This document shows, in pieces, positions 1,660-4,413 of a stretch of 64,000 nt of DNA. The stretch spans positions 1 to 64,000 of the forward strand of contig JABJJO010000152.1 of the NCBI GenBank assembly GCA_018660825.1. The letters run 5' to 3'. Below the pieces are notes generated by a model that was not told where the DNA came from, did not search any database, and worked only from the letters and a program-made list of their open reading frames with translations. The DNA is from Planctomycetaceae bacterium. Its GTDB lineage: Bacteria; Planctomycetota; Planctomycetia; Pirellulales; Pirellulaceae. Every line of letters begins with the position of its first letter. Position 1 is the first letter of the stretch. The position numbers and the translations under genes were made by a program.

Positions 1660-2277
1660 ATGGCAAAATTGTACTTTTATTACTCAACGATGAATGCTGG
1701 TAAGTCAACAAGTCTGTTGCAAGCCAGCTATAACTACCAAGAGCGAGGCATGGAAACCTTGGTGCTAACACCTGCCATCGACACACGCAGTAGCACAGGA
1801 CATGTATCTTCTAGAATCGGCATCACGACACCAGCAACTATTTTCAATAACACCGACAATCTATTTCATCTCGTCCGGGACATAGCAGCTACAGCCAATA
1901 TTCATTGCCTCCTAATTGATGAAGCTCAGTTTCTAGAAAAAGCACAAGTCATACAACTGACCGACGTTACCGACGAACTCAATATTCCCGTCCTTTGTTA
2001 TGGCTTGCGTACCGACTTCCGAGGAGAACTGTTCCCCGGTAGCAAACAACTACTCGCTTGGGCTGATGACCTAACCGAATTGAAAACCATTTGCCATTGT
2101 GGCCGCAAAGCCAATATGGTCCTCCGCCTCGACAGTGCGGGAAATGTCATCAAACAAGGTGCTCAAATCAAGATCGGCGGCGATGATCAATATGTTTCCG
2201 TGTGCCGCCAACATTTCAAATCAGGCATGGCCTCACGACGAAACGATGAATTAATGCTGGAGGGTTTTGATGATTAA
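1660..2277 (+). CDS. tdk: Thymidine kinase
   Basis: A 205-residue type II thymidine kinase, which phosphorylates thymidine to dTMP with ATP in the salvage pathway. The P-loop is at residues 9-17 (STMNAGKST). The DEAQ motif that binds magnesium and carries the catalytic Glu is at 87-90. A zinc site is seen as C145/C147 (TICHCGRKA) and C182/H185 (VSVCRQH). The length and the [11 protein letters not shown] lasso region fit the E. coli-type enzyme closely. The open frame extends upstream to 1504, but the ATG at 1660 gives exactly the conserved N-terminus ([16 protein letters not shown]). Its last 8 bases overlap the start of the SDR gene, so the two are probably translated together. Confidence 0.96.
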
Positions 2278-3049
2278 CCTAACGGGACATAATGCACTGA
2301 TTACTGGATCCACTCAGGGTGTCGGTCAAGCAATCGCTGTCGCCATGGCACAGGCGGGGGCCAATGTCGTCATCCATGGGCTACATGACGACGACGCAGC
2401 GCAAAGAACTCTGCAACTATGCCAGACAACTGGACAAACCGCAGAATTATTGACGGCTGATCTGGCAAGTGACGTGCAGCAAGCCACACAACAACTATTT
2501 GCCAACGCACTCCAGTTGAATCCCGACATCGACATCCTCGTTAATAATGCTGGCACATATATTGATAAGCCGTTTCTCGAAATGGATTACGCGACGTTCG
2601 ATAAAACGATGCACCTCAACGTGTATGCTGGATATTTTTTAACCCAACATTTTTCCAAACACTGGGTTCAGCAAGCTACCAACGGACGGGTTCTATTTAT
2701 TGGATCGATCAACGGCAAGCTCGCAGAAGACGTACATACCGCCTACGACACTTCCAAAGGCGCTGTAGAAACAATGGTAAAGACTCTTGCCGTTTCACTT
2801 GCACCACTGAATATCCGAGTCAATGGACTAGCACCCGGTCTCTTTTATACGCCTTTGACAGCGCCCGCTTTGGACGATCCCCAATTCTTGCAATGGATGA
2901 AACAACACACACCCAATGGCCAAGTCCCAGCAGCCGACGTCTGTGGCGACGGTGCCGTGTACCTTGTCAGCGACGCAGCGCGACACGTCTGTGGCCATAT
3001 GCTGATGGTCGATGGCGGTATGAGTATTTGGCAACAACCAGAACCGTAA
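2270..3049 (+). CDS. SDR family NAD(P)-dependent oxidoreductase
   Basis: A 259-residue classical short-chain dehydrogenase. The cofactor motif TGSTQGVG is at residues 12-19. NNAG follows in the middle of the Rossmann fold, the catalytic Ser lies in GSING and the YxxxK pair in YDTSK. The C-terminal DGGMS stretch is typical of FabG-like enzymes. The ATG at 2270 overlaps the tdk stop (ATGATTAA); a TTG one codon upstream is possible but less likely. The substrate is unknown. FabG-like and sugar-dehydrogenase roles are both possible from sequence alone. Confidence 0.9.
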
Positions 3050-3112: not shown

Positions 3113-3631
3113 ATGACTAATCTTAATCCAGCACCACAACTGTCCTTGAAAACACATGACGGTACCGTTGTTGAATTGTCCCAGTACTGGGAAAAAATGT
3201 CCGCTGCTTTTTATTTCACACGACACTTGGGCTGAGTCTTCTGTCGTGAGCAGATGGTCGATCTGCAAAATAACCTTGATGATTTTCAGGCAGCCAACAT
3301 CCAACCAGTCGTGTTCGTGATGGGAACCCCAGTGCAAGCGGCTCCACTTGTCGAAAAATATCAACTTACTATTCCGGTTCTTTGTGACCCACAACAAGAA
3401 GCATACAAGGCTTACAACATCCCTCAGGGAACACCATTACAATATCTGGGGTGGCGGGTTTGGTTGCCAGGACTACGAGCGATGTTTCGTGGCGGTATTG
3501 GAAAACCCATTGGCGATGTAACTCAAATGCATGGTACCATTCTTGTTAACACAGACGGAAACATCCAAACCGCGTTTACAGCGAAAAACTCGTCTCACTA
3601 CCCTAGCCTCGCCGACATCACGACGACTTAA
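3113..3631 (+). CDS. Peroxiredoxin-like selenoprotein (UGA read as Sec41)
   Basis: Read through an in-frame TGA at 3233-3235, this gene gives a 172-residue thioredoxin-fold protein of the AhpC/TSA-like Prx-like2 (FAM213/SelL-related) family. The frame is open from ATG 3113 to the TGA (40 codons) and from the TGA to the stop at 3629-3631. The residues around it read FTRHLG-U-VFCREQ, where the family has F.RH.GC.FCRE, so the TGA sits exactly at the first Cys of the CxxC redox motif and the partner Cys44 is kept (TGT 3242-3244). Downstream the family features continue (PVLCDPQQEAYKAYN, GTILVNTDG, HYPSL). A SECIS-like hairpin follows the codon. A nonsense mutation or a base error is the alternative, but it would not explain the hairpin. 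The protein probably acts as a cytosolic thiol/selenol oxidoreductase. It lies 63 bases after the SDR gene. Confidence 0.85.
3250..3266 (+). promoter_or_regulatory. Putative bacterial SECIS element
   Basis: A perfect 6-bp stem (GCAGAT at 3250-3255 with ATCTGC at 3261-3266) closes a five-base loop GGTCG (3256-3260). The stem starts 14 bases after the in-frame TGA (3233-3235) and the loop guanines fall 21-22 bases after it. In the E. coli fdhF SECIS, as I recall it, a GGUCU loop sits at a nearly identical distance. SelB binds such a loop to bring Sec-tRNA to the ribosome. The element lies inside the coding sequence, as is normal in bacteria, and encodes EQMVDLQ. Confidence 0.8.
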
Positions 3632-3666
3632 TCAATCATTCAATCCTAACTGTGATTCAACACTCC

Positions 3667-4413
3667 ATGTACGACCTAATTATCAGTGACATTGACGGTT
3701 GCCTGTCGCCTGAAGATTCCTCGCCAATGAATCTGGAAAAGCTGGCTCTAATTGCCCAACACAACCAATTAGCCTTCCGGCAGGGCGATCGCCCTAAACT
3801 CACACTCTGCACCGGCCGCCCGATTGCGTTTGTCGAAGCCTTATGTCGAGTTTTACAAAACCGCGACATCCCTTGTGTCGCTGAAAATGGCGTTTGGCTA
3901 TTCGACCCGCGCGATAATCAATACAGCATGGATCCTTCCATTACCCCAGACCAACTGGAAATGGTCCACGCAGCAGAACGGTTGTCGTTAGAAATGTTTC
4001 AGGATCAAGGTGTCACTTTGCAACCTGGAAAGTCTGCCTCGGTAACGCTCTATCATCCCGACCCTGAAGTTATTCATGGGGTGATTCCCGTATTAGAAGC
4101 GGAGTTTGCAAAGCGTGAATGGCAATTCCGAGTCTCACCAACACTGTTCTATATCAATTGCGATTTGCCACAGATCAACAAAGCGTCGGGCATCGATCAT
4201 TTACTGGTGCGAACCAACATTGACCCTAGACGTACAGCAGGTATCGGTGACACTTCGAGTGATTTAGCGATTGCGGATCGAGTGGAAACATTTGGCTGCC
4301 CAGCAAATGCTTTTGCCGAAGTCAAAGCGGCTGCTGATTTTGTTTCGCAGTTCGAGCAAATTGACGGAGTCTTAGATTTTATGCAATACCTAGAAAGACA
4401 AAGCGACGCATGA
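3667..4413 (+). CDS. HAD family hydrolase (Cof-like phosphatase)
   Basis: A 248-residue haloacid-dehalogenase-fold phosphatase. Motif I is DLIISDIDGCLS (Asp8 and Asp10), motif II is the Thr in LCTGRP, and motifs III/IV are seen in INKASGIDHLL and GIGDTSSDLAIAD. The cap lies between motifs II and III, as in the C2-capped Cof/sugar-phosphate phosphatases. The ATG at 3667 places motif I at the very N-terminus; a GTG at 3652 would add five residues. The stop overlaps the ATG of the next gene (ATGA at 4410-4413), which suggests translational coupling with the MFS transporter. The substrate is probably a small phosphorylated metabolite. Confidence 0.88.
   Translation: MYDLIISDIDGCLSPEDSSPMNLEKLALIAQHNQLAFRQGDRPKLTLCTGRPIAFVEALCRVLQNRDIPCVAENGVWLFDPRDNQYSMDPSITPDQLEMVHAAERLSLEMFQDQGVTLQPGKSASVTLYHPDPEVIHGVIPVLEAEFAKREWQFRVSPTLFYINCDLPQINKASGIDHLLVRTNIDPRRTAGIGDTSSDLAIADRVETFGCPANAFAEVKAAADFVSQFEQIDGVLDFMQYLERQSDA

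Follow-up and report, generated by a model that had tools for sequence, protein, structure and literature searches.

A SelL-related redox protein gene with an in-frame UGA, very probably read as selenocysteine, in an uncultured planctomycete

A peroxiredoxin (Prx)-like gene of a marine Planctomycetaceae bacterium (GenBank assembly GCA_018660825.1, contig JABJJO010000152.1) is interrupted by an in-frame TGA at its redox motif, which raises the question of whether this codon ends translation or is read as selenocysteine (Sec). The gene lies in a stretch of 64,000 nucleotides (positions 1 to 64,000 of the contig, here called the window), which was analyzed together with the remainder of the genome and with related genomes.

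A single reading frame interrupted by one TGA

When TGA was translated as U, positions 3113 to 3631 of the forward strand formed a single frame of 172 codons, closed by a TAA stop at 3629 to 3631. This frame contains exactly one in-frame TGA, at codon 41 (3233 to 3235), where a UxxC motif opens (RHLGU41VFC44RE); the Cys that closes the motif, the proposed resolving Cys, is encoded by TGT at 3242 to 3244. The only product of the standard code in the list of open reading frames, and thus the product of a standard gene caller, is a 125-amino-acid ORF at 3254 to 3631, from which the active site is missing. A first-pass annotation of the window had described one continuous Prx-like gene split by a TGA at codon 41, with the TGA where a CxxC motif begins, the second Cys kept, and a 125-residue ORF without the active site left to ordinary gene calling. 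This description was borne out, and the domain matches reported below span both flanks of the TGA. Its placement of the UGA at the redox Cys holds as far as the first position of CxxC is concerned, but the active-site (peroxidatic) Cys of true peroxiredoxins aligns with C44, not with the Sec.

The gene is flanked on the same strand by a short-chain dehydrogenase (SDR) gene upstream (2267 to 3049) and a HAD hydrolase (Hydrolase_3) gene downstream (3652 to 4413), both of which are syntenic throughout the genus. As far as the compared stretches extend, the gene order in the genus is thymidine kinase, SDR, the selenoprotein gene, HAD hydrolase, and MFS transporter. Nothing in the gene neighborhood across the genus pointed to functional membership of the SDR in the selenoprotein system. 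No second convincing candidate emerged when the 64,000-nucleotide window was scanned for further UGA codons within redox-like motifs.

Protein family and predicted fold

For profile searches, Cys was put in place of the TGA. The read-through product was above the cut-offs of the Pfam models AhpC-TSA (66.7 bits, residues 5 to 152), Redoxin (39.9 bits), and AhpC-TSA_2 (PF13911; 41.0 bits versus a cut-off of 27, residues 50 to 155), as well as the NCBIfam model NF040769, SelL-related redox protein (122.1 bits versus a curated cut-off of 120, residues 6 to 170). NF040769 was also matched by all 24 aligned relatives. The best match by sequence profile in the PDB, nearly full length, was human prostamide/prostaglandin F synthase (PRXL2B; 9us9, 52.7 bits), in which the CxxC motif aligns with U41/C44. 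The assignment to SelL-related and Prx-like2 proteins made in the first-pass annotation was therefore right, with NF040769 above its cut-off and PRXL2B as the closest solved relative by sequence, and the alignment to the AhpC/TSA and Prx-like2 families that it had proposed as a check gave scores above the cut-off for AhpC-TSA, AhpC-TSA_2, and NF040769.

AlphaFold2 predicted a thioredoxin-like peroxiredoxin fold (pLDDT, 93.6; pTM, 0.89), and a Foldseek search placed 9usa at rank 4 with a TM score of 0.75. In comparison with the BCP-type peroxiredoxin 2cx3, C44 aligned with the active-site Cys and U41 with a Ser.

Conservation of the TGA codon and selection on both sides of it

The TGA was found at the same codon in all nine genomes of the genus, within the motif RH(L/I)GUVFCREQM. 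This conservation, together with the inclusion of both flanks in one AhpC-TSA match and in one NCBIfam match, confirms that the arrangement is far from chance. At column 41 of the alignment the genus has TGA and five other sequences (L048, L049, L038, L041, and L042) have Cys; the 10 columns that are invariant over 24 sequences are L22, F35, R37, H38, U/C41, C44, D92, D135, Q138, and G141. In the tree, the window protein and its genus formed one group (support, 100/99) adjoined by a set of UPxC and Cys proteins whose grouping had weak support, and a ULPC clade and a CTFC clade of Cys proteins were more distant.

The nearest relative, L055, is 90% identical to the window protein. In comparison with L055, dN was 0.022 and dS 0.386 upstream of the TGA (dN/dS, ∼0.06), and dN was 0.055 and dS 0.371 downstream of it (dN/dS, ∼0.15), so that both halves of the gene are under purifying selection; because dS was saturated for many pairs of more distant members of the genus, these ratios come mainly from this closest pair.

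A hairpin downstream of the TGA

Bacterial SECIS (bSECIS) elements have been modeled as a stem of 4 to 16 bp with a loop of 3 to 9 nucleotides that carries a G in one of its first two positions and lies 16 to 37 nucleotides from the UGA (PMC13188914). A hairpin at 3250 to 3266 falls within all of these limits. It starts 14 nucleotides past the UGA, and its 6-bp stem (GCAGAU at 3250 to 3255 paired with AUCUGC at 3261 to 3266) encloses the loop GGUCG (3256 to 3260), which is 20 nucleotides past the UGA. No Rfam match was obtained in the SECIS stretch, and the hairpin was therefore evaluated by covariation. In 12 orthologues with TGA the hairpin was intact in every sequence, with 72 of 72 cells paired, and two pairs had undergone compensatory changes (GC, CG, and AU at pair 21/31; AU, GC, and GU at pair 22/30). 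For the window clade, covariation scored 0.323, compared to 0.135 for shuffled alignments and no more than 0.081 when the position of the hairpin was slid. In 2,000 trials in which synonymous codons were exchanged and the amino acids kept, an average of 52.4 and at most 63 of the 72 cells were paired, and the observed value was never reached. Of the six stem positions, just two and three can pair in the two nearest Cys homologues, from which the hairpin is absent. When folded by itself, the window sequence gave a hairpin of ordinary stability (z, −0.56); the case for a SECIS element rests on covariation, not on single-sequence stability.

The ULPC clade (L021 to L047, evaluated over the TGA and the 51 nucleotides after it) has a different hairpin, with the loop AGUU located 25 nucleotides from the UGA and a covariation score of 0.551 compared to 0.228 for shuffled alignments. 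In the window clade the loop is GGUC or GGUU, 20 nucleotides from the UGA. This difference suggests relocation of the SECIS element within one family. A tentative extension, to which we give somewhat less than even weight, is that the genus, with those planctomycete relatives that carry the TGA (U-V/P-x-C followed by RE-Q/H; GGUC/GGUU loop at 20 nucleotides), might constitute an undescribed selenoprotein subfamily of its own, distinct from the ULPC one (AGUU loop at 25 nucleotides), and that two SECIS placements evolved in one protein family.

Selenocysteine machinery

The genome of the window (4.94 Mb, 96.6% complete) was searched for selA, selB, selC (tRNA-Sec), and selD. A tRNA-Sec of 96 nucleotides was found on contig C22 (29322 to 29417) with Infernal and RF01852 (63.9 bits versus a gathering score of 47), and its anticodon loop, CUUCAAA, gives the anticodon UCA. 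ARAGORN detected no tRNA on this locus (L001), at which the Infernal match is clear. The same contig carries selA (535 bits) and selB (335 bits for the main piece, 371 when joined), and selD is located on contig C110 at 40163 (349 bits). The first-pass annotation had named the absence of these genes as grounds for giving up its reading; as all four are present in the window's own genome, these grounds fall away. The selD gene has an in-frame TGA of its own in the motif SCAGUAGK (SCAGUAGKLPQ on the forward strand of L062, from position 1128, contig C110), and SelD is therefore probably itself a selenoprotein. Another probable selenoprotein is encoded on contig C206 (L060, 340 to 1521, forward strand), where an N-terminal repeat region is followed by a redoxin domain with an in-frame TGA in GDTUPVCHGQL; it scored 58 bits with NF040769, below the cut-off.

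The survey was extended to 99 genomes, comprising that of the window and those of its relatives, in which a TGA-bearing member was counted if it was full length and above 100 bits. Such a member was present in 28 of the 99 genomes. By hand count, a tRNA-Sec of at least 60 bits was present in 55 of the 99, and in 26 of the 28 with a TGA gene; the two exceptions were G003, whose assembly is 69% complete, and G008, in which selD contains a TGA in frame. In G003, a member of the window's genus, selA, tRNA-Sec, and selD were all below the cut-off. No selA was found in two further members of this genus that keep the TGA gene, G006 (which has tRNA-Sec and selD) and G008 (selD). The missing selA in these three genomes is probably due to assembly gaps at the selB-selA locus. 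Neither of the genomes with the closest Cys versions (L048 in G050 and L049 in G025) had a selD over the cut-off or a tRNA-Sec over 47 bits. One further genome, G026, has a homologue without TGA (C1, 8417567 to 8418064, reverse strand) together with tRNA-Sec and selA; its selD match lies in an open frame of 797 amino acids and has no TGA.

Occurrence in other phyla

A search for the TGA motif pattern RHxGU..CRE(Q/H), with one genome per species, returned UxxC-TGA loci on at least 119 genome contigs, and all of those listed were homologous to the window protein. Among the 119 loci listed, 111 had a model-conforming stem of at least 6 bp, compared to 27.7 expected from synonymous shuffling. The listed loci were labeled Desulfobacterales, Myxococcota, Acidobacteriota, Chloroflexi, Actinomycetota, Chthonomonas, and Planctomycetota. 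In plasmids, only distant relatives were found, with less than 35% identity among the matches listed, nearly all of them from Rhizobium. Sixteen members (L066, L067, L083, L084, L099, L103, L108, L110, L111, L112, L130, L157, L162, L164, L168, and L175), mostly from Myxococcota and Deltaproteobacteria, continue for ∼370 to 490 residues after the Sec codon and may therefore be fusions of the redoxin domain with a long domain at the C terminus.

Alternative readings of the TGA

If the TGA were a genuine stop, produced by a recent nonsense mutation (a pseudogene) or by a sequencing error, only fragments would be made, which agrees with the output of a standard gene caller, the 125-amino-acid ORF that begins at ATG 3254. 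We consider this very improbable because the TGA is kept in all nine assemblies of the genus and across phyla, which led to the rejection of pseudogene formation and sequencing error as candidates, because dN/dS is low on either side of the codon, because the downstream hairpin covaries, and because the active-site motif would disappear. The same ATG might instead serve for re-initiation after a 40-amino-acid leader, so that the locus would encode two proteins, and within the genus this codon (M48) is indeed conserved. It is, however, replaced by Val in the TGA-bearing relatives L058, L059, and L063 and by other residues elsewhere; re-initiation would also cost the protein its UxxC motif and some of the thioredoxin fold and would leave the covariation of the SECIS and the co-occurrence with tRNA-Sec unexplained, and we regard it as even less probable than a genuine stop. 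Equally remote is decoding of the UGA as Trp or Cys, through either a suppressor tRNA or reassignment of the codon: the frame would be open whichever residue was inserted, but UGA serves elsewhere in the window as an ordinary stop (the HAD hydrolase gene ends with TGA), the site aligns with Cys rather than Trp, and the full Sec machinery is present along with a SECIS element.

Recoding at codon 41, as judged from sequence, is well supported by the conserved frame, purifying selection on either side of the TGA, covariation of the SECIS, the machinery, and the fold prediction. We therefore hold it very likely that the gene encodes a selenoprotein of the SelL-related/PRXL2 (Prx-like) family in which TGA is read as Sec; this confidence belongs to the selenoprotein reading, and the redox cycle outlined below is drawn from the family as a whole.

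Proposed mechanism

Translation would start at 3113. SelA would form Sec-tRNA(Sec) from selenophosphate that SelD supplies, and at UGA 3233 the hairpin at 3250 to 3266 would recruit SelB with Sec-tRNA(Sec), so that Sec is inserted at position 41. Sec41 would then act as the attacking nucleophile on a peroxide or disulfide substrate, Cys44 would resolve it as a selenenylsulfide, and thioredoxin or a similar reductant would re-reduce the selenenylsulfide. This redox chemistry is the most likely one given the predicted fold and the UxxC motif. By analogy, we infer that the product may be a thiol/selenol oxidoreductase or a peroxide-reducing antioxidant enzyme; peroxidase and disulfide-oxidoreductase activities are equally compatible with the tests.

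Relation to known selenoproteins

Prx-like selenoproteins with UxxC were catalogued in 2006 (PMC1794560), and in 2008 225 'Prx-like 1' sequences were counted in the GOS data, in a study that called SelL a Prx-like protein (PMC2398784). Prx-like thiol:disulfide oxidoreductases have been predicted as selenoproteins with high confidence (PMC13188914) and are also included in a review (PMC9312934). Selenoproteins of planctomycetes were reported in 2016 for the Porphyra-associated P1 and P2, with formate dehydrogenase and formylmethanofuran dehydrogenase named in the main text (PMC4807772); the full list is in the supplement of that report and may include a SelL-type member. The statement of the first-pass annotation that it knew of no described planctomycete member of this type thus overstated the novelty, given the 2016 report as far as its main text goes, the catalogues of UxxC proteins, the NCBI model, and the frequency of the TGA motif in several phyla. 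Since NF040769 exists, NCBI can already name the family, and the window protein is a real, ordinary member of a widespread and already named bacterial family. Literature searches on SelL with Planctomycetes and on NF040769 found nothing, and no biochemical work on bacterial SelL-related proteins was found. The locus shows clearly how naive gene calling can cut a selenoprotein short and lose its active site, and a conserved redox selenoprotein is thereby added for an uncultured genus of planctomycetes. Matched Sec and Cys versions of one family, with and without SECIS and Sec machinery, are available in the larger set of sequences, and with them the order of Sec/Cys exchange and the gain and loss of SECIS elements become testable.

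The window protein is a full-length match to NF040769 (residues 6 to 170 of 172 to model positions 2 to 170 of 173) at just 2 bits over the cut-off, and belongs to a divergent UVFC branch, whereas the top-scoring planctomycete members have ULPC. The SelL family is defined by a Prx-like fold with Sec as the first residue of the redox motif, and SelL of aquatic animals has two Sec residues in a UxxU motif that form a diselenide. The window protein shares the Prx-like fold and the Sec at the first position of the motif but has UxxC (U41-V-F-C44) with a single TGA, and it is therefore SelL-related rather than SelL. In place of the PxxxTxxC motif of typical peroxiredoxins it has RHLGUVFC, with C44 at the position of the active-site Cys. 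It resembles the Prx-like thiol:disulfide oxidoreductases and GOS 'Prx-like 1' in Pfam domain (pfam00578) and UxxC motif, a comparison made by domain and motif; that label is broad. The resemblance to PRXL2/FAM213 includes a score over the PF13911 gathering score, with UxxC replacing CxxC; however, identity to the human enzyme (9us9, 9usa), which uses Cys, is 19%, and a shared substrate need not be expected. As described in the main text for P1 and P2 (PMC4807772), the genome of the window belongs to the same phylum and likewise combines complete Sec machinery with several selenoproteins.
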